From positions 1 through 55,918 of the forward strand of contig JABJQG010000021.1 of the NCBI GenBank assembly GCA_018663505.1: a DNA stretch of 55,918 bases. The letters run 5' to 3'. Both the position numbers and the translations under genes were made by a program. This DNA is from Pseudobdellovibrionaceae bacterium. Its GTDB lineage: Bacteria > Bdellovibrionota > Bdellovibrionia > Bdellovibrionales > UBA1609. Positions within the stretch are counted from its first letter, which is position 1, and every line of letters starts with the position of its first letter. Below, one piece after another: positions 124-21,697 of this stretch. Below the pieces are notes generated by a model. It was not told the origin of the DNA and ran no database searches. It was given only the letters and a program-made list of their open reading frames with translations.

Positions 124-1752
124 TTACTTCAACATATTTATTCTTTGTATAAAATCTTCTTCGGACTCAAAGCCTGTGAGCGTGAGGTCTCTGCGAATTT
201 TACCGTTGCTGTCGTAAAAGATCAGGTTAGGTAGCCCAATGATACCGTATTTTTCTTTTAGGTTTTGAAAATCACCATCTTGTAGAGTGGCATCAAACTT
301 AAAGAGAACAACATCTTTGTCTTTGAGTAATTGAATTACTTTTGGGTTGGTAAATGTTTTTTCTTCTAGCTCTATGCAAGCTGCGCACCAATCGGCCCAG
401 AAATCGATGATAATATTTTTTCCATCTGCCTTGGCTTTTTCGTAAAGTTTTTCACTATAGTTTTGCCAATCAGAATGGTTCTTGCTCTGAACTTGTTGCG
501 TGGTGTTTGATGGAATATATCTTTTGATAAGTGGGTAGGCATAATAGAAGGCCATAAAAAACATAACCGTTCCAAAAATATATTTTACAATATTCATCCA
601 TGCACCTGATTTTGGTAACTTGCTAGCTAAATGCGAGAAAGTTCCTAAAACTAAAAATAGAAGTCCGAAGCCAAGAGCAAAAGTAAACAGTAAGAAAAAA
701 CCTAGGGTCATATTTTGTGTTTTAGCCACATAGGTGAGTATACCCACTAGAACTGGACCCACACATGGGCTTGCCAAAATACCGGCGGCCATTCCTGCAA
801 GATAAGCATTTTTATAGCCTTTTGATTTAGAATCTGGGTTTAATTTCTTTTGAATAAAAGCAGGGGGTTGAAGCTCGAAGAGGCCAAACATACTCAAGCC
901 CATGGTAATAAAAATAATACAGATTACAGCAACGGCTGCAGGGTGTCCTAAAAATCCTCCAAATAAAGCTCCGGTTTTTGCGGCCACTAAGCCTAAAACA
1001 GCATAGGTTGTTGCTATTCCCAATACATAAACAGAGCTGAGTAAGAAGTTTTTAGTTTTATTTCTTTCGTGAGCTTTGTTACCAAGAATAGCCATAGTGA
1101 TGGGAATCATAGGGTAAATACATGGGGTGAAGCTGGTTAAGAGGCCCGCCATAAATACAAATAAAAAGACAGCTAATAATCCCATTTTATGTATACGTTG
1201 TTCCAGAGTGAGTTTAGTTTCAGGGAGAGGAATGGCGTTGCTAACAATGGTTCCAGTTGTTCCATTGGCGTCAAAAGGGGCTTTGAGTTCTGCCTCGGGC
1301 AAAATATTTAAGTTCACTTCTACAGGGACTTTAATTGGAAGTAGACAATAATCTTTTGTACAAGCTTGGTATTGAATTTTAAAAATGAATTTTTGAGTTC
1401 CTGTTTTCATATCCACAGGGAATTCAAAACGAGTGGTGAGAGTAGCTTTACCCTCTATGCCTTTTTTTATTTTTTTTGAGAATACATCCATGAATTCAAT
1501 AATGGGATCAATTTCTGGGTCCCCCAGGGCAATGTTTGGATGTGTGGGTGAACTTATTTTAAACTTTTCGGCATAGGCTTGATGTTTTGGGGCGAGGTCT
1601 AATTGAAAAACAAGGCTGGTGTTTTCTCCCACGTGGAAGCTGTCTTTTTCACCTATAAAACTTGCCGAAAGCGGGTTTTCATTAATAACAGCATTTGCCA
1701 TAATCTGGGAAAAACAGAAGAAGCTAAGACAAAGGTTGAGGATCAATTTCAT
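124..1752 (-). CDS. dsbD: thiol:disulfide interchange protein DsbD
   Basis: DsbD moves electrons from cytoplasmic thioredoxin across the inner membrane to periplasmic thiol proteins. All three classical parts are visible in 542 residues. An N-terminal signal peptide is followed by a periplasmic alpha domain with Cys131/Cys136 (ACTKDYC). A multi-pass membrane domain carries C211 (TSFTPCIYP) and C330 (ASPCVGPV). The C-terminal thioredoxin domain has the CAAC active site at 456-459 (FWADWCAAC). The length is normal for the family and all six redox cysteines are present. The ATG start has an AAGGA Shine-Dalgarno upstream on the minus strand. It is transcribed divergently from motA and appears monocistronic. 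Confidence 0.95.
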   Translation of the reverse strand: MKLILNLCLSFFCFSQIMANAVINENPLSASFIGEKDSFHVGENTSLVFQLDLAPKHQAYAEKFKISSPTHPNIALGDPEIDPIIEFMDVFSKKIKKGIEGKATLTTRFEFPVDMKTGTQKFIFKIQYQACTKDYCLLPIKVPVEVNLNILPEAELKAPFDANGTTGTIVSNAIPLPETKLTLEQRIHKMGLLAVFLFVFMAGLLTSFTPCIYPMIPITMAILGNKAHERNKTKNFLLSSVYVLGIATTYAVLGLVAAKTGALFGGFLGHPAAVAVICIIFITMGLSMFGLFELQPPAFIQKKLNPDSKSKGYKNAYLAGMAAGILASPCVGPVLVGILTYVAKTQNMTLGFFLLFTFALGFGLLFLVLGTFSHLASKLPKSGAWMNIVKYIFGTVMFFMAFYYAYPLIKRYIPSNTTQQVQSKNHSDWQNYSEKLYEKAKADGKNIIIDFWADWCAACIELEEKTFTNPKVIQLLKDKDVVLFKFDATLQDGDFQNLKEKYGIIGLPNLIFYDSNGKIRRDLTLTGFESEEDFIQRINMLK

Positions 1753-9675: not shown

Positions 9676-11877
9676 CTAGTTCTTTTTTTTGTTAAGGAAC
9701 TCAGCTATGCCCTGCTGCTCACATTTTAAAACTTGGTTTAAACGACTCTTTAGTGAAGATGGTGGTTTTTTTGCGATGATTTTTTTAAAAAGTAGTCTTT
9801 TTGCAAGAGAGAGCAGTTTTATATTTACTGTTTCATCAGGAACAAAATTAAACTCATTTTCTGGTGGGTTAATTTTAGAAAAAGAAGCATAATCTTCGGA
9901 TTCTCTTTGGCTCTTGTATAATAATTGTATTTTGTCTGAATAGGCAAAAGAGTTGATCTCTTTTACTTCAACGTCATTATGAAGTTTGTGTTTATCTAAA
10001 AATAGTTGAAACTCCTCATGGTCATGGACGCTAATATTACTGACTTGAAGGCCATAGATGGTGGAGTATGCAAGCACGGTACCTGAAAAAGGTCCAATTT
10101 TTACGGTACCACCATTATGGGTATGGAGAAGATCTGGAAAAATATTTTGCTCAAATAAAATGTTTTCCAAATCTTTCTTACTGGGCCATTTTAAATCCAC
10201 GGGCCATAATGGATCGGTGTTTTCGTACACAAGAGAAACTTTACTGTGACCACTTGAGTGCTCATAAGATATAGCAAGGTGATCTACGTAGTTAGGTAGA
10301 CCCCACCTTTGAAGCTTCTTTAAATCTAAAAGTTTAACATTTGAAAAGTTATGAGAGTCTTTATTGGGATCAAAAGTGTAGGTAGCAGTTAGAGGACCCA
10401 TATTTACACTTCTTCGAATTTTTTTAAGAGTAATGTTGGTTTTAGAATCAAGAGACTGAGTGAGTTGTTCCACAAGGGCTTTCTCCGCCACAGATCCATG
10501 ATTTTTGACTAAATCATTTCTCAGATATTTTATATTTATAGAACTGCTAAGTTCACTTGGATTACTGGCAAAATACTCATCAGCTAAAGCATCTACTGTG
10601 GTGTAAGGTTGCTCTAGATGATGGCTATTAAGGGCTGCATAAGTATGAGCTTCTGAAAAACTTACTTTTCCATCTAAATTTAGATCTGCATTTTTTATGT
10701 CATTTAAACTTTTAAAAAACAAACTCAGAAAGTCTGGTAGATCTTTCCCAACCTCCGTATCTTCCCAGCAGCCTAAGGATGTGGAGCTTGGTCTTGCAGC
10801 TGTAAAACCGCAGGTAACATGTTTTGCCATAATTCCGCCATAACAATTTCCACTAACGAGAATATTCTGATTGGTAGTATTTTTTAAAGCACTTTTTAAA
10901 TCATCTGGGGTAAACTTATTAGTAGGATTTAGCCAGGTGGAAAAGCCTGTTGGAGAACCGTGACCAGCTAAAACAATTAAGTTACTATCAGTTTTAGTTT
11001 TTTTACTGTGTTCAAAGAAGCTTTTGATATTTTGTTTTGAAGGAGTGTATTTAGCCTTTAGGTTGAACTTTGTAAAACTTTTTTTATGATTTGCCGACTC
11101 AGTGACAGAGTTTTTCTCTGGGTCTATTGCAGCTATGGGTTTATAAAAGTCAGGGGTTGTAAATGTAGTATCCTTCGTAGGATTTTTTCCAGTACCATAG
11201 AGTGTTATTGGTTCAACTTTTGTAATACCCCCAAGATATTTTTTAATTTTTTGTAATGTGATGCCAGTGAATATGGGGTTGCTTGTGGGAAAATTAGCAG
11301 TACCAATAAGCAAGATATTAATGTTCTTAATATCATTGTTTAACTGTAGATTGGGAGTCTGGTTTGGTGATTTCACATTTATACTATTGAGAATTAAATT
11401 AGAAAAATCCAGTTGAGTTCTTGGGCTGTTAAGAAATGTACGTACTCTTGTTTTATAGTTATGGTGGGACTCTTGATCCATAGGGAGGAGGTCCTTTTCT
11501 TTAAAGTAGGGTATTGAATCTACTCTTTTAATTTCTTTTTTAGCTAAAATTTGACCATCAATAACTAGAGAAAATTGAGGTAAAATTGAGTCTGAAAATC
11601 CAAGGGATTTACTGTATTGTGCATTATTAGCCCATGGGTCAATGGTGGTTAAAGGCATATTGTACAGATGGCCATTATAAGTCACCCTGATGTGTTTTAG
11701 TTGATTGGAGTCAGTCATATGTTTATTGAGCTGATTACATACTTTGCACTGAGGACTTGTAAATAAATACACAGTGGCTTGCTCTAGTATTTGCTCCGGT
11801 GATCTGCTTTTTGCATTTAGGGAGGTAGAAACAACTATGCTTAAAATGGGTAGAATAATATTGAACTTCAAAGGCAC
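9676..11877 (-). CDS. secreted thioredoxin-like / caspase-like (clan CD) / EF-hand multidomain protein
   Basis: This 733-residue exported protein has a signal peptide ending near SLNAKS. Residues 30-120 look thioredoxin-like: YLFTSPQCKVCNQL holds a CxxC at 44-47, and ILPQFSLVIDG has a cis-Pro-like position. Residues 185-440 resemble a clan CD cysteine peptidase (caspase/legumain). His306 is in IVLAGHGSPTGF and Cys345 in ILVSGNCYGGI, each after a hydrophobic strand. Inserted after it is a textbook EF-hand loop at 398-409 (DLNLDGKVSFSE). The C-terminal 290 residues are unrecognised. The arrangement suggests a calcium- or redox-controlled periplasmic or extracellular protease, but activity is inferred. 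It is convergent with the PPC gene and monocistronic. Confidence 0.8.
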   Translation of the reverse strand: MPLKFNIILPILSIVVSTSLNAKSRSPEQILEQATVYLFTSPQCKVCNQLNKHMTDSNQLKHIRVTYNGHLYNMPLTTIDPWANNAQYSKSLGFSDSILPQFSLVIDGQILAKKEIKRVDSIPYFKEKDLLPMDQESHHNYKTRVRTFLNSPRTQLDFSNLILNSINVKSPNQTPNLQLNNDIKNINILLIGTANFPTSNPIFTGITLQKIKKYLGGITKVEPITLYGTGKNPTKDTTFTTPDFYKPIAAIDPEKNSVTESANHKKSFTKFNLKAKYTPSKQNIKSFFEHSKKTKTDSNLIVLAGHGSPTGFSTWLNPTNKFTPDDLKSALKNTTNQNILVSGNCYGGIMAKHVTCGFTAARPSSTSLGCWEDTEVGKDLPDFLSLFFKSLNDIKNADLNLDGKVSFSEAHTYAALNSHHLEQPYTTVDALADEYFASNPSELSSSINIKYLRNDLVKNHGSVAEKALVEQLTQSLDSKTNITLKKIRRSVNMGPLTATYTFDPNKDSHNFSNVKLLDLKKLQRWGLPNYVDHLAISYEHSSGHSKVSLVYENTDPLWPVDLKWPSKKDLENILFEQNIFPDLLHTHNGGTVKIGPFSGTVLAYSTIYGLQVSNISVHDHEEFQLFLDKHKLHNDVEVKEINSFAYSDKIQLLYKSQRESEDYASFSKINPPENEFNFVPDETVNIKLLSLAKRLLFKKIIAKKPPSSLKSRLNQVLKCEQQGIAEFLNKKKN

Positions 11878-12831: not shown

Positions 12832-13018
12832 AAGTTCATTTTATTATTTACTAGGTAGATTTGGCTAGGGAAGTTTAGAGTAGCTGGATTTAAGTAGTAA
12901 AGATTGTCCTTTACCGTATAAAGGTCTTAGTTGCCTAAAGACTAGATCCTTCCATGGGGACTACTGCATGTGTAATTACTTTTATATCTTAGTAGTTATA
13001 GGTTTTTAGAGGATGTAC

Positions 13019-13822
13019 ATGGGAGAACTTAAAATTAAAGCGACAATTATATTAATATTATCTTTGATGATCGTAACTACTGACGCGCAAGCGCAGGAGG
13101 GTGGAGGCGGTGACGTTGAATCCTTATATGATCAATTCGATTCTAAGCAAAGTAAAAAAAGACAGAAAAAAGAGAGAAAACGAAAGCAAAAATTCGAAGA
13201 AATAGATGGCAATAACCTATCTTCAATTTATAAGTTAGAACCTTTTTCAGATATTGCTGTTATTCAGAAAAGGTACCTACCAAAAACAGAGAGATTTGAG
13301 TTTTCAATATCTGGTATGTCAGGTTTAAACAACGCCTTTTTTAATAATCTAGGAGCCGGTTTAAGATTAGGCTATCATTTTATTGAAAAGGTTGGAGTGG
13401 AATTACAATACTTTGCTTTTTCCTCATCAAAAAGGGATGTGACAGAGAGTCTCGAGAGCCGCTCTGTAAGAACGAGCTCTATAGTCACAGCAAAAAGTTA
13501 TGTTGGCGCTTCAATTAAATGGTCTCCAATATACGGAAAAGTGTCATTTTTAAATGAATCCATTGTTCCTTTCGATATGCATTTTCTCTTAGGTGCTGGT
13601 CAGGCGTCTACTGAAGATCAAGATGTTCCGGCATTTCATGTTGGAGGTGGTCAGTCATTTGCATTAAGTAAAGGTATGTCAGTAAGATGGGATATTTTAT
13701 TGAATTTTTATCAACCAGAAATTGTTTCCACGCTGACTAGTGAAGTTATAAAGCAAAATCAAAGCGATTTGTTTTTTAGCTTAGGTTGGAGCTTTTATTT
13801 CCCAGAGGCAAAGTATAGATGA
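13019..13822 (+). CDS. outer-membrane beta-barrel protein, first gene of the Glt-like operon
   Basis: This 267-residue exported protein has a signal peptide (about 1-25, ending TTDAQAQ). A short glycine and Lys/Arg-rich segment (KKRQKKERKRKQK) follows, then a barrel-like domain from about 75 onward ending in SFYFPEAKYR. It is paralogous to the divergent 12091 gene. ATG 13019 is chosen over ATG 13013 because AGAGG then sits six bases upstream. It overlaps the next gene by 4 bp (ATGA). In Myxococcus, two such barrels (GltA, GltB) form the outer-membrane part of the gliding machine. The basic stretch is unusual and might contact peptidoglycan or LPS (speculative). Confidence 0.75.
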   Translation: MGELKIKATIILILSLMIVTTDAQAQEGGGGDVESLYDQFDSKQSKKRQKKERKRKQKFEEIDGNNLSSIYKLEPFSDIAVIQKRYLPKTERFEFSISGMSGLNNAFFNNLGAGLRLGYHFIEKVGVELQYFAFSSSKRDVTESLESRSVRTSSIVTAKSYVGASIKWSPIYGKVSFLNESIVPFDMHFLLGAGQASTEDQDVPAFHVGGGQSFALSKGMSVRWDILLNFYQPEIVSTLTSEVIKQNQSDLFFSLGWSFYFPEAKYR

Positions 13823-15453
13823 AAAAGCTATTTATATATATGTTGATGATATCCATTTTTTCTACACCTTTGTATGTATTAGGGTCACAGGTAAATGTTA
13901 TTAATGAATTGAATTTAACACAGGGACCAACTGTAGCGAAGTCTAAGAAAAGAAAAAAAAGACGCTCGGTTAAGAGGCGAGCAAAAAAAGCTAAGGCAAG
14001 ATCTGGACTTATTAAGGCATTAAATTTAGCAAAACAGGGTAAGTACCAACAAGCATCAATGAAGCTTTTTCAGCTTTCTCATAGCCCCAGGTTTGCAGAC
14101 AAAAAAGATCAAATCAAATATATATTAGGTTTAATGTTATACCAAATGAAGTTGAATCAAATATCAGCATATCAATTTATAAGTGTGATAAAAAATGGGA
14201 AGAAGAAATACCTTAAACAAAGCTTAGAGAAATTATCTCTAGCTGCAGATTATTTGGGTGATGACACTTTATTGAACTATGCTCTTACAAAGGTTAAAGT
14301 GAGTTCCTTCCCCAAAAAACATAGGAATATGCTGTTTTATAGACTTGGTGAATTTCAAATGAGAAATGAACAGGTTAAAAGTGCCATTAACAGTTTTAAA
14401 CGTGTAAATAGTTCTAGCCCTTATTATTCAAAAGCCAAGTATATGGAAGCTTTATCTTATGCAGAATTAAAAAAATTCAATAAGTCTATTTCCACATTTG
14501 ACAAAATAATAATGAATAGATCTGATCAAGCAGTCACAGACCAGGCAACTGTTGGGGCTATTATTGGCAAAGCTAGAGTTCAGTATCATGCTAAAAAATG
14601 GGAAGATTCATTAGAAACATATAGGGATGTGCCGAGAGATACAAAATATTGGCATAACTCTCTCTTTGAATCAAGTTGGACAATGCTACGATCAGGGCGA
14701 TTTAGGTCGGCATTAAGTAATATGCATAGTTTGCACTCGGAATACTATGAAGAAAACTACTTGCCAGAATCTCTATTATTAAGAAGTATTGTGTATTTAT
14801 ATATCTGTAAATACGAAGAGATGGACAAGGTCCTGAATTTATTTAAACGTGTTTATAAACCTGTGTATAAAGATGTTAAGCGCTTTATTAAAGAGGTGAA
14901 GTCAGATGAAGATAATTTTAATCTCATTGCACAGTATGACTTAAAGAATCATCCTTATATTCTAACAAGAAAATTAACATCTCATAGAGTGTCCAAAATA
15001 GTTCAACGACATATTTTTGAAGATGGCTCGTTTCAAAATAATTACAAATATATTTTAAAGCTTCATAAGGAAGCCAAATTGATGAATGAGTTGCCTGCAT
15101 CTTGGAAGAAATCAGCTTTGGGAAGATACTCTAAAAAAGTTCTTTCAACACGTATTAAGAAGGCTAAGCAAAAAACAGGTAGAATTGTAAGAAACAAACT
15201 TATTAGTGTTAAAGAAGAAATCTTCGACTTATTTGAACAGCAAGGCTTTATTAGATTTGAAATGCTTAAGGGTAAAAAAGAATCTGTTAAGCAAGATATA
15301 AGTGGAAGTACAATTGCTGACGTGCAGATCGATGATGATAATCAACGTGATTATTATATTCAAAATGGGTATGAGTACTGGCCTTTTAAAGGTGAATATT
15401 GGTTGGATGAACTAGGTAACTATCACTATTTAGGAACACAAAGTTGTCAATAA
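13819..15453 (+). CDS. secreted TPR-repeat protein of the Glt-like cluster
   Basis: This 544-residue protein has a signal peptide (MKKLFIYMLMISIFSTPLYVLG) and then a strongly basic patch (KSKKRKKRRSVKRRAKKAK near 35-55). Helical repeats with TPR character run through about 60-340 (for example YRLGEFQMRNEQVKSAINSF and AKYMEALSYAELKKFNKSI). The C-terminal 200 residues are helical and charged, without a recognised domain. It overlaps the upstream barrel gene by 4 bp and is followed one base later by the giant TPR gene. By context it would be a periplasmic scaffold comparable to Glt TPR components, but I cannot assign a one-to-one orthologue. Confidence 0.75.
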   Translation: MKKLFIYMLMISIFSTPLYVLGSQVNVINELNLTQGPTVAKSKKRKKRRSVKRRAKKAKARSGLIKALNLAKQGKYQQASMKLFQLSHSPRFADKKDQIKYILGLMLYQMKLNQISAYQFISVIKNGKKKYLKQSLEKLSLAADYLGDDTLLNYALTKVKVSSFPKKHRNMLFYRLGEFQMRNEQVKSAINSFKRVNSSSPYYSKAKYMEALSYAELKKFNKSISTFDKIIMNRSDQAVTDQATVGAIIGKARVQYHAKKWEDSLETYRDVPRDTKYWHNSLFESSWTMLRSGRFRSALSNMHSLHSEYYEENYLPESLLLRSIVYLYICKYEEMDKVLNLFKRVYKPVYKDVKRFIKEVKSDEDNFNLIAQYDLKNHPYILTRKLTSHRVSKIVQRHIFEDGSFQNNYKYILKLHKEAKLMNELPASWKKSALGRYSKKVLSTRIKKAKQKTGRIVRNKLISVKEEIFDLFEQQGFIRFEMLKGKKESVKQDISGSTIADVQIDDDNQRDYYIQNGYEYWPFKGEYWLDELGNYHYLGTQSCQ

Positions 15454-15454
15454 T

Positions 15455-18400
15455 ATGAAATATATATATATTCTTCTATTCTTATTTATTTCCGTCTTAC
15501 ACGTTAATGTTGAAGCTAAAAAACGGGTATATAAAACTCAAACTATTGGAGATATTTTTCAAAAAATTGAAAAAAAATCTCAAAAAGTTAAATTAAAAAA
15601 AGCTCAAACAGCATTGCCACAAATTAAAAAATCAAGAAAAACAAAAATAAAAAAAACCGAGTTACGTTCCATTAAGCCACCAAGCTCATCAAAATTTATA
15701 AAAGGGAATTCACAAGAGGCTGAGCTTGAAAAATACACCGATCGAGAAATTAAACAGTTGTATGTGTTGACTAGACAGTATAGACGGAGCAAGAGGCGAG
15801 GTGAGATTTGGTTAAGGCTTGCTGAAGCATATGTAGATAAATCAAAAATTGTAGAGTACAGGTTGCAAAATGAATATGATAAAAACATTATTAAATATAA
15901 AAAAGGTAAATTAAAGCGTAGACCAAAACTGAGTCTAAAAGAAGCGTCATCATATAACCTCAAGGCCATTAAATTGTATGAATGGTTTCTTAGGGATTTT
16001 CCAAAGGATTCTAAGGTTGATCAGGCTTATTTCTTTCTAGGTTACAATTATTTTGAACTGTATAAAATTGATAAAGCACTTGGATATTACAGACGTTTAA
16101 CAAAAGAATTTCCAAAAAGTAAATATGTTTCTGAAGCCTACTTTGCCATAGCCGAATATTATTTTGATAATGAAAAGTGGCAGGATGCTTTGAAAAGCTA
16201 TTATGCTGTGTCTAAAATCAAAGTCTCACGACTATATACCTTTGCGTTATATAAACTAGCGTGGTGTCACTATAAAAGTGGGAATGTTAAAAAAGCTATG
16301 GCTTATCTTGAAAGAGTTATTCGTGAAGGTAGAAATCAAACTAGTGATTCTGCACGGAAGATTCGTTTAGCTGATGAAGCAAAAAAAGACCTTATTCCAT
16401 TTTTTGCAGAGTTAGGCGCATATAAAAATGCCGAATCCTACTTTTCAAAAGTGGTAAGAAGTGGCGAAATTGATAGAATGATAGAGCGACTGGCTTACTA
16501 CTATGCCGACACTGGAAATAAAAAAGGTGCGAGATTCTACTTTAAGAAGATGATAAGAAAAAATCCTAATGCTCCTAAGTCATTTGAATATCAGAATCAA
16601 ATTGTTAACTTATATTTAACTGCAACAAAATCAAAAATATTCAAACAGGAACTGTATCATTGGGTAGAATATTATGGACCTAAAGGCCGATGGGCTTTGA
16701 AAAATGCAAAAGCTAAGGCCCTTGTTAATAAATCAAAAGAGCTTGTTGAGGCAAGTTTACGTGCATATACTTTACAAAACCACCAAACAGCTCAAAATTC
16801 ACATGGAGCTCAATCCACTAGTGCAGCAAAAAATGGTTATGAGTTATATTTTAAAACATTTGTGTCCACTCCATACTTAGGGGATATGCATTTCTTTTTT
16901 GGTGAAATGATGTTTGATTTAAAAAAATATAAAATCGCAGCGAAACATTATATTTGGGTTGTAGAAAACGACAAAAAGAAAAAGGGAAAATATTATAAAA
17001 AATCATTACTAAACTCTATATTAGCCTTAGAAAAACATTTACCAACGGATAAAGAAATATCTAAGATTGTAGGTAAATCCAAAGCAAAAATACCTTTAGA
17101 TAAGGTTACTAAAAGCTTTGTGATCGCAGCATCAAAATTTGTGAAGGAGCAACCAAAAGCAAGTAATGTGGATGATATAAAGTATAAATTAGCAAGTTTG
17201 TACTATGCATACAATCATCTAGACGAAGCCATTGAAGGCTATAAAAATATTGTGAAAGAACATCCAAAAAGCAAATATGCATCGAGCTCAGGCCATCTAA
17301 TTTTAGACTTATACAATAAGAAGAAAGACTATATTGCTTTAGAAAATGCAGCTCAAGCTATGTTGAAAATCCCAAGTATTGCAAAAGCTAAATTTGGTTT
17401 AGAGGTTAAAAGTATTTTACAACGTAGTTCCTTTAAACAAGCTCAAGATTTAGAATCGGATAAAGAGTTTGTAAAGAGTGCTAAAGCTTATGAGCGATTT
17501 GCACTAAAATATAAAAAGTCAAAGTTGTTAAATAGCGCAAGATTCAATGCTGCTGTAAACTATGAAAGATCTGGTGATATTGGCCAAGCCATAGTGATGT
17601 ATGAGCTAGTTGTTAATAAAGCAGGAAATTCTAATAAACCATTAGTTTCACAATCTAGGAAAATTTTAGCATATTTGTATGAAGCCTCTGGCCAGTTCAA
17701 AAAAGCAGCAAGTTTTTATGAGAAGTCAGCTGCAGAAAATAGAAAAAACTCATACGGTGCTGATTTTTACTATAATGCAGCTGTGTTAAGAGAGGGGATG
17801 CGGTTTTATTCCGCTGCCATTAATAATTATAAGAGTTACTACAAATTAACAAAAAATAAAAACAAAGAAGAAGCATATTACTATATAGCTGAAATATGGA
17901 ATAAGCGGGGTAAAACAGCTAAGGCTATCGAGAATTACAAAAAATATATGAATCTTAACCCCAAAGATCCAAATTACGTAGTTGCGGCCACTTTTAAAAT
18001 TGCTAAGTTGTATGAAAAAAATAAAAATAAAAAGAAATACTTAAAATGGTATGGTAAAACTATTGCAGTTTATAAAAGCCTGAGAAATAGGGTTGAGTAT
18101 GAAGCGAAAGAGTATGCAGCAGAATCTCAGTTTAAATTAACTTATGAAATATACTTAAAATTTAAAGCTATAAAGATACCAAAAAATCCCGCAGCACAAC
18201 AAAAAGCTGTTGCTAAAAAACTAAGCTTAATAGAGTACCTTACGAAACAGCTTAAAAAAACTATTAAGTATGAAGCCGGAAACCAAACCATAGCGTCTAT
18301 GTCCTTAATTGCGCAATCTTATCAACATATGATGGCATCTGTAATAAAAGCACCTTTACCAAAAGGTTTGAATAAAGAAGAAGTGAAAATTTATAAGTTA

Positions 18401-19321
18401 GAAATAAAGAAAGTCGCTGATAAGTTTAAAGAACAAGCTATTAAGAATTATGAAATGACTATTGCAAAAGCCTATGAGTTTGAAGTTTATGGAAAATGGG
18501 TGTCGGCTACGCTTAATAATTTGAAGAATCTTCACCCAGAAAAAGTTAGAGGACTTGATTTTAAAGCGTATATTACTCGCCTTCCTGATGATTTGGAAAA
18601 TAAAAAAGGACTATCAAAAGCTCCAGTTCAAGACATTGAGGCGTTATATAAAGCTAAGGGGGGTGCAGATGAGAAACAGTTGGTTGCAGCCTCTGCAAAA
18701 ATTTTATTAAAACACCCTGGTGACTTATACACTTTAACTACTTTGAGTTTGCATTACTATAATAAGAAGTACTTTGGTCTGTCAAAAATTATACTGAACA
18801 GAATCGTTGAAGCGTTTCCGAAAGAGCCTTCAGTTTATAATAATTTGGCGGTAGTTAACTTAGCTGAAGGTAATTTTAAAAAAGCTCTTTTTAATTTCCG
18901 ACAGTCTTTAAAGCATAACCCTGATTATCAAGTAGCTTCTGCTAATTTAGGATCAATTTATATTGAGTACTTGGACTATAAGAGAGCTTATGCTCCATTA
19001 GAAAATGGATTTAGAGTTGTAGAGGGGAAACTTAAAAATAAAGATTTAAGTGCTTTCAAAGTTGCTAATAACTACGCCATTGCTCTTTATGGCAAAGGAG
19101 AGCTTGAAAAATCTAAAAGGCTACTAAAAAAACTTATGGATTATGGAGCTCGTGAAGAATCCATTTATATCAATTATATTACTTTAGTTGTTAATTACAT
19201 GGATGATAGTGATGATGCTTTAAAAGTAATAAGTAAGCTTAAATTCATTTCTGAGAACCAACAAATTTTAAATAAGGCCAAAAAACTTGAAGAGAAGATC
19301 TATGAAAAAGATAATAAATAG
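15455..19321 (+). CDS. giant periplasmic TPR protein, GltD-like by size and context
   Basis: This is a 1288-residue exported protein with a signal peptide (MKYIYILLFLFISVLHVNVEA) and a lysine-rich linker to about residue 85. The remainder is built almost wholly of TPR-type helical hairpins. Clear examples are DQAYFFLGYNYFELYKIDKA, AYFAIAEYYFDNEKWQDALK, KYKLASLYYAYNHLDEAIEG and the C-terminal VYNNLAVVNLAEGNFKKAL and ASANLGSIYIEYLDYKRAY. There are a dozen or more repeats by eye. Very long periplasmic TPR proteins occur in the Myxococcus gliding complex (GltD/AgnA). Here it lies between a smaller TPR protein and the FHA/TonB-like protein, consistent with a protein-protein scaffold across the periplasm. 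Lysine content is very high. Confidence 0.8.
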   Translation: MKYIYILLFLFISVLHVNVEAKKRVYKTQTIGDIFQKIEKKSQKVKLKKAQTALPQIKKSRKTKIKKTELRSIKPPSSSKFIKGNSQEAELEKYTDREIKQLYVLTRQYRRSKRRGEIWLRLAEAYVDKSKIVEYRLQNEYDKNIIKYKKGKLKRRPKLSLKEASSYNLKAIKLYEWFLRDFPKDSKVDQAYFFLGYNYFELYKIDKALGYYRRLTKEFPKSKYVSEAYFAIAEYYFDNEKWQDALKSYYAVSKIKVSRLYTFALYKLAWCHYKSGNVKKAMAYLERVIREGRNQTSDSARKIRLADEAKKDLIPFFAELGAYKNAESYFSKVVRSGEIDRMIERLAYYYADTGNKKGARFYFKKMIRKNPNAPKSFEYQNQIVNLYLTATKSKIFKQELYHWVEYYGPKGRWALKNAKAKALVNKSKELVEASLRAYTLQNHQTAQNSHGAQSTSAAKNGYELYFKTFVSTPYLGDMHFFFGEMMFDLKKYKIAAKHYIWVVENDKKKKGKYYKKSLLNSILALEKHLPTDKEISKIVGKSKAKIPLDKVTKSFVIAASKFVKEQPKASNVDDIKYKLASLYYAYNHLDEAIEGYKNIVKEHPKSKYASSSGHLILDLYNKKKDYIALENAAQAMLKIPSIAKAKFGLEVKSILQRSSFKQAQDLESDKEFVKSAKAYERFALKYKKSKLLNSARFNAAVNYERSGDIGQAIVMYELVVNKAGNSNKPLVSQSRKILAYLYEASGQFKKAASFYEKSAAENRKNSYGADFYYNAAVLREGMRFYSAAINNYKSYYKLTKNKNKEEAYYYIAEIWNKRGKTAKAIENYKKYMNLNPKDPNYVVAATFKIAKLYEKNKNKKKYLKWYGKTIAVYKSLRNRVEYEAKEYAAESQFKLTYEIYLKFKAIKIPKNPAAQQKAVAKKLSLIEYLTKQLKKTIKYEAGNQTIASMSLIAQSYQHMMASVIKAPLPKGLNKEEVKIYKLEIKKVADKFKEQAIKNYEMTIAKAYEFEVYGKWVSATLNNLKNLHPEKVRGLDFKAYITRLPDDLENKKGLSKAPVQDIEALYKAKGGADEKQLVAASAKILLKHPGDLYTLTTLSLHYYNKKYFGLSKIILNRIVEAFPKEPSVYNNLAVVNLAEGNFKKALFNFRQSLKHNPDYQVASANLGSIYIEYLDYKRAYAPLENGFRVVEGKLKNKDLSAFKVANNYAIALYGKGELEKSKRLLKKLMDYGAREESIYINYITLVVNYMDDSDDALKVISKLKFISENQQILNKAKKLEEKIYEKDNK

Positions 19322-19598
19322 TAAGCTTTTAATTATTGTTTTAATTGTATTGTTTTTACCCCTTAGCCTTTGGTCTAAGCCGAAAGGTAAAGCTACAGGT
19401 AAAAAGTCTAGTAAAAAGAACACAGTTATCAATTTTGACGATGAATTGATCGTTGGTGAGAACCAAAAGCCAGAATTGTTTTACCTTCTGCAAAAAAAAC
19501 AATATAATTATAAAAAGTTAATAAAGTTAAGAGAACATTTTTTACCCGAACTTAGAAACACCAGTGAAGACTACAGCCGAGATGGGAGAAGTGATTGA
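19302..19598 (+). CDS. small exported protein of the Glt-like cluster
   Basis: This 98-residue protein starts with a hydrophobic signal or anchor segment (LLIIVLIVLFLPLSLWS). A Lys/Gly/Ser-rich stretch follows, then a conserved-looking block INFDDELIVGENQKPELFYLLQ and a charged helix ending in EDYSRDGRSD. I do not recognise a named family. Similar short proteins with a DELI...KPELFYLLQ block may accompany Glt-type clusters; that is recollection, not a search. It overlaps the end of the giant TPR gene by 20 bases and the next gene by 4. ATG 19302 is chosen over an upstream TTG. Confidence 0.7.
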   Translation: MKKIINSKLLIIVLIVLFLPLSLWSKPKGKATGKKSSKKNTVINFDDELIVGENQKPELFYLLQKKQYNYKKLIKLREHFLPELRNTSEDYSRDGRSD

Positions 19599-21697
19599 AG
19601 CAGCCTGTTTTTATAAGAATCTATTCTAATCAACAATTGCAGGAAATAAAACAATTTCCTGATGCTCAGATTATTATTGGAAGTGGCGATGATGCTCAAC
19701 TTCAACTTGAAGGAGAGGGACTATCTTCACTTCATGCTATGATTGAGGAGCGCACTGATGGATATTATCTTACTGATTTAGGTTCTGAATCGGGAACTTT
19801 TGTTGAAGAACAAAAAATTGTTGAACATAAACTTGAAACGGGTAGTTCATTTAGTCTTGGTTCATATACAATTGAGTTTTTCATAGGGGTACCTAAGCCC
19901 TCAAAGTTACAATCAAAACCACCTCTATTAAAACACTTAGACAAGGCGAAGCCAGCAACGCCATCTTTACCTACGAATAAAGAAATTAAGGTAGCTAGCC
20001 CGATTAAAGAAAAATCTTCAGAAAAAAAAACAACTGGTGTTGAGACCCCTGTTCTTCCTAAAACTACTACTGGGAGTGCACCAAAAAAGAATACAATTGA
20101 GAACAAAGACTCGGGCACTACTAAAAAAGTGAATACTAAGGTACCACCCGCTGTTCAGGAAAAAAACACACCCATCAAGGGGTCTAAAAATGAAAAATTT
20201 GATCCCAATAAATTCTCTAAAAGAACATTTGCTCCAGCTAGTGAAATTAAAGACTTATCTAATGTCATTAGCCCAGCTACTGGATCTCGGGTACAGGTCG
20301 TTGTTGCCTGGAAAGAAAGAGTATTAAGTACTTATTACTACAATCATGGCCAATCCGTGAGCATTGGCTCTTCACCAGCCAACGATATAGTTGTACCATT
20401 GGTTGGCTTTTCAAAAACCTCATTTAAACTTTTTAGTTTTGAACAGTCATTGAAGGTATACCTAAGCCCTGAGATGAAGGGGGAATATACACAGCATGGT
20501 CATAATCTTAGTTTATCTGAGCTGATGATGAGTAATGCATTTCCCAAAAAAGGAGAGCTTTTTGAGGTTGAGTTAGCTCAGAACGAAATGTTAAAAATTG
20601 GTTTTGCTAGTGATGAAATGCATATTTATATAAAGTATGCCGAAGAGTCTACAAAGCCTATTGTTGGACCATTTCTTGATTTAAGCTTTTCAGAATTTAC
20701 GAGTATTATTTTTGCAATTCTGACTGTTGCTATATTTGGGCTCTATATGCTGATTTACTCGCCTGATATAGAGGAAGAGCTGAAGCAAGATCAACCTATT
20801 CGTCGGGCCGTAGTTACATTCAGGCCGCCTAAGGTTAAGCCCCCTACTCCACCAAAAAAAGAAGCTGTAGTTGGTCGAGTAGCTGTAAGGAAGCCCAAAC
20901 CTAAGAAGACTAAGTTACGGGCGACCTCCGTAAAAAATATTAAAAAGAAATCTGGAAAATCAGCTAAGGTTGCCAGTTCAAAGCCAAAGAAACGTAGACG
21001 CAGAAGGGGATCAGCCCGTAAGGGTGGAGCTGTTAAGACAGGTAAAAGTGGATCAACAGCAAAAACTAAAACGCGTAATTTAAAAAAGTTTGGAATGTTT
21101 GGAGCTTTTGGTGGCAAAGGCGCAAATACGAAGTTAGATAAAGTTTTTGATGGTGCTGGTGGTATTAGTGGATTAAGTGGTACGAACACTGGTTTTAGTG
21201 GGCAGAAAAGCCAGAGAAAAGGTTCAAATTTAGGTTCACGACTCAAAGCTACAGGAGTATCTGGGAAAACATCATCAACGGTAGCTATTGGCGACGTTGG
21301 CACTAAAGGGAAGGGAACAGGGATTTCTGGAACTGGTACAGGGGGTTTTGGTAGTCATCAAAAAGTAAATGTAAAATTAGCGGGTAATGAAGCTGAGTTT
21401 ATAGGGACTATTGACCGTGAAGCTATTCGTCGTGTTTTAAATGCCGAAAAAAGAGCTTTTGCTCATTGTTATAATGTGGAATTAAAGAAAAATTCTAATG
21501 TATATGGAAAGCTCAAACTTCAATGGACTATTATTGAAGGGGGAGAGGTTGAAAAAGTAAAAGTAGTATCTAACACAACTGGTAGTAAAAAAATTGCTAG
21601 ATGTATGATGAATAAATTGGAAAATTTAAGGTTTCCGGAGCCACCGCCTGATCAGCAGGCAACAGTGGTTTACCCTTGGGTATTTTCGACACAATAA
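19595..21697 (+). CDS. FHA-domain / AgmX-PglI (TonB-like) C-terminal protein, GltG-like
   Basis: This 700-residue protein likely links cytoplasmic signalling to the periplasm. An N-terminal FHA domain lies at about 20-95 (IIIGSGDDAQLQLE, SSLHAMI, DLGSESGTFV). A second, degenerate FHA-like region lies near 235-350 (VSIGSSPANDIVV). One membrane helix at about 370-390 (IIFAILTVAIFGLYMLI) is followed by a long Pro/Lys/Arg- then Gly/Ser-rich tether. The C-terminal AgmX/PglI-type domain (about 605-698) has the paired cysteines AFAHCYN and IARCMMNKL and ends in LRFPEPP. This matches the design of Myxococcus GltG/GltJ. The TTG start has GGGAG seven bases upstream. TolQ/TolR-like genes follow. Confidence 0.85.
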   Translation: MKQPVFIRIYSNQQLQEIKQFPDAQIIIGSGDDAQLQLEGEGLSSLHAMIEERTDGYYLTDLGSESGTFVEEQKIVEHKLETGSSFSLGSYTIEFFIGVPKPSKLQSKPPLLKHLDKAKPATPSLPTNKEIKVASPIKEKSSEKKTTGVETPVLPKTTTGSAPKKNTIENKDSGTTKKVNTKVPPAVQEKNTPIKGSKNEKFDPNKFSKRTFAPASEIKDLSNVISPATGSRVQVVVAWKERVLSTYYYNHGQSVSIGSSPANDIVVPLVGFSKTSFKLFSFEQSLKVYLSPEMKGEYTQHGHNLSLSELMMSNAFPKKGELFEVELAQNEMLKIGFASDEMHIYIKYAEESTKPIVGPFLDLSFSEFTSIIFAILTVAIFGLYMLIYSPDIEEELKQDQPIRRAVVTFRPPKVKPPTPPKKEAVVGRVAVRKPKPKKTKLRATSVKNIKKKSGKSAKVASSKPKKRRRRRGSARKGGAVKTGKSGSTAKTKTRNLKKFGMFGAFGGKGANTKLDKVFDGAGGISGLSGTNTGFSGQKSQRKGSNLGSRLKATGVSGKTSSTVAIGDVGTKGKGTGISGTGTGGFGSHQKVNVKLAGNEAEFIGTIDREAIRRVLNAEKRAFAHCYNVELKKNSNVYGKLKLQWTIIEGGEVEKVKVVSNTTGSKKIARCMMNKLENLRFPEPPPDQQATVVYPWVFSTQ

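Follow-up and report, generated by a model that had tools for sequence, protein, structure and literature searches.

A thioredoxin-like module fused to a predicted exported legumain-fold cysteine peptidase in a small bacterial family

Results

Architecture of the Exported Protein

The window, a stretch of 55,918 nucleotides from a Pseudobdellovibrionaceae bacterium, was found to encode a protein that combines a thioredoxin-like module with a predicted legumain-fold peptidase and an EF-hand loop in one chain. This architecture, in which the loop is usual among the members, is genuine and previously undescribed, and it defines a small conserved family. No paper on this thioredoxin fusion was found in the literature searched, which included few subscription papers.

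The protein is encoded on the minus strand by a genuine open reading frame of 733 codons (positions 9676..11877) that starts with GTG and has an alternative TTG start at codon 3. The plus strand is interrupted by stops throughout the same stretch. The sequence-only reading had placed the open reading frame, C44/C47, H306, C345, and the loop at residues 398–409 exactly, and its claim of three modules in one exported chain is supported by the sequence, the homologues, and the model of the homologue L051. The N-terminus, (M)PLKFNIILPILSIVVSTSLNA followed by KS, is hydrophobic. Residues 1–22 (11812..11877, minus strand) were judged by eye to resemble a signal peptide and, on this sequence basis, the protein is predicted to be exported.

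Sequence searches with the window protein alone gave no significant match in Pfam, NCBIfam, or PDB; the PDB matches to 3n72 and Cry1Fa were judged to be due to chance. The alignment revealed an insertion of about 200 amino acids at residues 490–690 (9808..10410, minus strand), which has a partial counterpart in the Bacteriovoracales members and none in the Pseudomonadota members. As the GC content of the gene (0.350) is close to that of the window (0.367), there is no compositional signal of horizontal transfer in spite of the patchy distribution described below.

Homologues and Co-Conservation of the Motifs

A phylum-wide search using the middle of the protein yielded true relatives with E-values down to 5e-33, and the best two of them (L026 and L027) also carry an upstream CxxC. 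In the first broad alignment, consisting of 11 sequences, H306, G307, C345, G348, D398, G403, E409, and P424 were invariant. Since the catalytic and EF-hand columns do not vary among homologues sharing 16–27% identity, the motifs are not a product of chance.

The alignment of thioredoxin-bearing forms retrieved ten loci from GTDB genomes: three from Bacteriovoracales (Bdellovibrionota), one from an unclassified bacterium (L055, apparently on the same contig as L026), and six from Pseudomonadota metagenome-assembled genomes (MAGs), including a Nevskiaceae. Two further members were found by an HMM search. L049, L050, and L047 are apparently identical to the genes L027, L041, and L042, and each such pair entered the count a single time. 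Among the resulting 13 distinct thioredoxin-bearing members, the CxxC and C345 are present in all, and H306 in 12. It should be noted that the scan of the ten loci used the patterns [LMI][VIL]SG[TN]CYGG and [ST]CGF[FT][GA]A[HR]P, so the conservation of C345 and C356 among them is partly imposed, whereas that of the CxxC, the histidine, C370, the tail cysteine, and the EF-hand loop is not. Homologues routinely lacking the proposed residues, which would have refuted the sequence-only reading, were thus not seen as far as the redox and catalytic residues are concerned; for the loop, the same holds in part (10/13).

The remaining member, L093 (940-2574, plus strand), has threonine in place of His306 and a deleted EF-hand loop and retains all six cysteines described below. 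By its sequence, it is probably a pseudo-peptidase. The loss of His306 together with the retention of the six cysteines indicates that the cysteines of at least one member serve something besides peptidase activity.

In the tree of the peptidase core, built without the thioredoxin part, all 13 thioredoxin-bearing forms fell on one side of a branch supported at 99/99. The tree is unrooted and is consistent with the thioredoxin fusion having been gained once and retained.

The family is bacterial, rare, and patchily distributed, and appears under no name in any library searched. A full member was present in 1 of 144 genomes of the window's own class, in 3/129 and 1/58 genomes of the classes of G320 and G186, respectively, and in 5 of the 246 genomes of the order around the Nevskiaceae genome. 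Single-protein scans of the genome contigs, viral contigs, and plasmids gave no match; a search of 59 relatives was equally negative, as was the scan of viral contigs with alignment A4. Order-level matches at E-values of 0.005–0.09 were treated as noise, most of them containing internal stops. L033 (an M16-like peptidase by eye), L038, and L039, which were weak BLAST matches, were judged to be non-relatives.

Peptidase Core and Catalytic Residues

The window protein is predicted, from sequence profiles and the model of its homologue, to be a legumain-fold (clan CD, C13-like) cysteine peptidase. The family profile and the L051 model place the core at residues ~183–440 (10558..11331, minus strand). 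The putative catalytic His306 (LAGHGS; 10960..10962, minus strand) aligns with the histidine of the legumain DHG motif, and the putative nucleophile Cys345 (VSGNCYGG; 10843..10845, minus strand) with the cysteine of the EAC motif. The proposed clan CD His306/Cys345 pair was borne out, being in register with legumain and conserved in the homologues. As for its "caspase/legumain-like" contexts, the fold is legumain-like, with legumain as the best match of the L051 model, and is not that of a caspase proper.

The evidence from sequence profiles is stepwise. The profile of the wider family (A1) matched legumain 4aw9 with an E-value of 5.4e-7 and with both catalytic residues in register. The narrow profile of the thioredoxin-bearing family alone found no peptidase by sequence. 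This family (A6) matched its sister branch lacking thioredoxin (A8) at a profile E-value of 3.8e-19 and the C13-like group (A7) at 2.3e-6. Two A7 members match Peptidase_C13 (PF01650), and L036/L046 pass its Pfam cutoff. The link of the narrow family to peptidases by sequence runs through the thioredoxin-less sisters. The curated cutoff of PF01650 was passed only by thioredoxin-less relatives; the window protein had no match to this family up to E 10, and no A6 member had one up to E 1. Peptidase_C14 (PF00656) gave no match with the window protein. A second C13-like open reading frame is present in the window's genome (G000:C49:68738-69034, 319 aa); it matches PF01650 at E 1.2e-4, just below the cutoff.

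AlphaFold2 was run on L051 (522 aa), using an alignment of 11 rows that included the window protein. L051, being free of the 200-residue insertion, was modelled in place of the window protein; the structural statements on the window protein are therefore made by homology, through an alignment at 24% identity. A single-sequence model of the window protein itself (pLDDT 31.6) was left out of the structural comparison. The L051 model had a pLDDT of 89.4 and a pTM of 0.88. In VIA-align, the top match was human legumain (Z 18.8, rmsd 3.5 Å over 219 residues, model residues 182–522); plant legumains and peptide ligases came next, and then GPI transamidase subunit K (16.5), metacaspases 4 and 9 (~16), and MALT1 (~14). 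The best Foldseek E-values belonged to asparaginyl endopeptidases. In the model, strand 279–286 leads to H287 and strand 319–322 stops just before C325. Thus, the alignment and the model place the putative catalytic histidine and then the cysteine each at the end of one of two adjacent core strands, as in clan CD.

The protein is not a true legumain, as it has no equivalents of legumain Asp147 and Glu190, the roles of which have been described (PMC9604545, PMC4506564); the corresponding residues are G305 and Y346. N200 lies near the position of the legumain triad Asn42 and is asparagine in 10 of the 11 A6 rows, with the register uncertain by one residue.

Thioredoxin-like Module

The thioredoxin-like module occupies residues ~33–130 (11488..11781, minus strand), with C44-x-x-C47 (CKVC) at 11737-11748 (minus strand). 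The best Pfam match of the window protein was Thioredoxin_2 (PF13098; E 0.01, residues 33–69), at a score of 16.6 bits, which is below the curated cutoff of 27. The L051 model matched E. coli thioredoxin with a Foldseek probability of 0.99. According to DSSP, its N-terminus consists of a strand, the CxxC, a helix, and two strands, with the CxxC (C19/C22) at the start of the first helix (20–31) after the first strand (9–15). The CxxC is invariant in the 11-row alignment and present in the two further members, and its internal dipeptide differs among members. The proposed C44/C47 thioredoxin-like domain was thus upheld by the 13/13 conservation of the CxxC and by the Foldseek match. P100 was found by eye at a position like that of the thioredoxin cis-proline; L055 also has a proline there, which is absent from the six Pseudomonadota rows of A6.

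Conserved Cysteines and the C-Terminal Tail

Three conserved cysteines, C356, C370, and C719, had been overlooked in the sequence-only reading. The segment from C356 to C370 (CGFTAARPSSTSLGC; 10768..10812, minus strand) has both cysteines invariant in A4, A5, and A6, and the profile alignment brings C370 and a cysteine of human legumain together in one short segment (AAxPxxxSxxC). C719 lies in the conserved C-terminal tail (CEQQGIAEFLN; 9679..9810, minus strand). A tail of the CExxxIxxFLN type is conserved across the thioredoxin-bearing family, and thioredoxin-less relatives, too, retain a CE close to their end. In the L051 model, the tail falls inside the region aligned with legumain, which extends to residue 522.

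Together with the CxxC and C345, these residues form a six-cysteine pattern. Counted from the CxxC to the C-terminus, the cysteines number exactly six in each of the 12 complete members; L052, the 13th, has five because its contig ends before the tail. C356 and C370 are present in 13/13 members, and the C-terminal cysteine in all 12 complete sequences. The four peptidase cysteines are also kept in the sister branch A8. Meanwhile, L036 and L046 lack C370, yet retain C356 and the C-terminal cysteine, which favours the pairing of C356 with C719. The pattern suggests a C356–C719 disulfide, with C345 and C370 left as a pair on which the thioredoxin module could act.

EF-Hand Loop

The loop DLNLDGKVSFSE (D398–E409; 10651..10686, minus strand) was confirmed as a perfect 12-residue EF-hand loop of the canonical form D-x-N-x-D-G-x-V-x-x-x-E, and helices 373–379 and 389–399 flank its counterpart in the L051 model in a helix-loop-helix arrangement. 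The loop is canonical in 10 of the 13 thioredoxin-bearing members, degenerate in L056, and deleted in L093 and L094. As a subclade has lost the loop, the calcium gating proposed initially cannot be general to these proteins, and the sequences suggest that calcium is an accessory input at most. Since the loop is present in several thioredoxin-less relatives and in only 5 of the 19 readable C13 open reading frames of the phylum, we conclude that it is a trait of this branch that is older than or independent of the thioredoxin fusion.

Genomic Context

A complete DsbD, with DsbD_N, DsbD_TM, and a C-terminal thioredoxin domain, is encoded at 124-1752 (minus strand) of the window. The gene that had been proposed as the source of reductant is thus real; it is weak evidence for such a role, as ~8 kb and several unrelated genes separate it from the peptidase-like gene. 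The nearby genes encode a PCC-domain protein, a MscS-type channel, outer-membrane beta-barrel-like proteins, and TPR proteins. No conserved neighbourhood was seen between the window and the homologues, the flanking genes of which differ (a glycosyltransferase, an aldehyde dehydrogenase, an MBL-fold protein), and hence none of them stands out as a partner in an operon. The suggested link to predation is weak, as over half of the family found lies outside Bdellovibrionota, mostly in Pseudomonadota MAGs.

Elsewhere in the window, at 13013-21697 (plus strand), the genes for an OMP-like barrel, a TPR protein, a TPR-repeat protein of 1288 aa, and an FHA-domain protein lie close together. This run adjoins a second OMP-like gene and looks like an envelope gene cluster.

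Discussion

Extracytoplasmic cysteine peptidases require a reduced nucleophile. To our knowledge, it is not settled by what means Gram-negative bacteria maintain the nucleophile of their exported clan CD peptidases in that state. The built-in thioredoxin and the fixed six-cysteine layout of the present family make this question testable via two residues.

The sequences and the homologue model make it plausible that the thioredoxin module exerts redox control. After export, the module would act in cis on the peptidase cysteines: it would maintain Cys345 as an extracytoplasmic thiol or restore it to that state, or else break a disulfide in which C345/C370 take part, and the peptidase would be active only with the CxxC reduced. 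C356–C719 may tie the C-terminal tail to the core. Calcium at the EF-hand loop, where present, would stiffen the region beside the substrate pocket without being an essential switch. We give an even chance to this reading of an exported legumain-fold peptidase with a cis-acting thioredoxin module regulating its cysteines and, in most members, one EF-hand loop within the peptidase domain. It is favoured by the exact count of six cysteines in all 12 complete members, by a tree compatible with a single fusion, and by the precedents of thioredoxin acting on caspase-3 in trans (PMC9598160) and of a metacaspase under calcium and redox control (PMC8455989). Against it, the thioredoxin-less sister branch has the same four peptidase cysteines, which hence have no need of a fused thioredoxin, the Pseudomonadota members lack a proline at the cis-proline position, the thioredoxin match is weak by sequence, and L093 keeps all six cysteines without His306. 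That the protein is a self-contained redox-gated extracytoplasmic clan CD protease, in which the attached thioredoxin switches the catalytic cysteine on and off and calcium is an optional second input, we propose only tentatively and with some doubt.

Secreted substrates are often disulfide-bonded, and the thioredoxin module might instead reduce the disulfides of exported or prey substrates, which the attached peptidase would then cleave, with no self-regulation involved. The N-terminal, separate position of the module, the varying CxxC dipeptide, and the complete DsbD in the same genome would suit such a role, but the strict count of six cysteines, persisting in the His-less L093, suits an internal role at least equally, and we consider this explanation unlikely. 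The same member, together with the absence of the EF-hand loop from L093 and L094, speaks for a thiol-disulfide exchange protein or chaperone, the legumain-like domain of which would mainly bind substrates, with peptidase activity secondary or lost. However, 12 of the 13 members, spanning two phyla, keep the histidine and the cysteine in exact clan CD contexts, and more drift would be expected of pseudo-enzymes, which makes this option quite improbable. The best structural matches also include peptide asparaginyl ligases and GPI transamidase, raising the prospect that the protein is not a hydrolase but a peptide ligase or transpeptidase, in the manner of GPI transamidase or of legumain at neutral pH. 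We regard it as very unlikely, since the residue preceding the catalytic histidine is Gly305 and not the equivalent of Asp147; in human legumain D147S and D147G, ligase activity was totally absent (PMC4506564).

With this family, the architectures known in the legumain/caspase superfamily come to include a fusion with thioredoxin. Thioredoxin is known to act in trans on S-nitrosylated caspase-3 (PMC9598160). The diatom type III metacaspase PtMCA-IIIc, which depends on Ca2+ and a reductant and contains a regulatory cysteine pair, resembles the proposed system as a clan CD protease under calcium and cysteine-redox control; it differs in being a eukaryotic metacaspase with an aspartate calcium site in p20 instead of an EF-hand loop and with no thioredoxin domain reported (PMC8455989). 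An EF-hand beside a caspase-like domain is known in seven prokaryotic caspase homologues (PMC6426788), but these belong to the C14/p20 family. The word thioredoxin is absent from PMC6426788, PMC3501461, and PMC8283722.

The C13-like proteins of Bdellovibrionota (L036/L046 and L028–L031) share the core, the C-terminal CE tail, and mostly the EF-hand loop at the same place. However, they lack the thioredoxin module; some are lipoprotein-like, and in others the core comes straight after the signal peptide. Legumain (asparaginyl endopeptidase; MEROPS C13, clan CD) shares with the window protein the fold, the order and contexts of the histidine and the cysteine, export, and the post-nucleophile AAxPxxxSxxC segment. 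Unlike legumain, the window protein has no Pfam C13 match and no recognisable legumain pro-domain, and it has glycine for Asp147 and tyrosine for Glu190. Relative to legumain, the thioredoxin module and the EF-hand loop are its additions.
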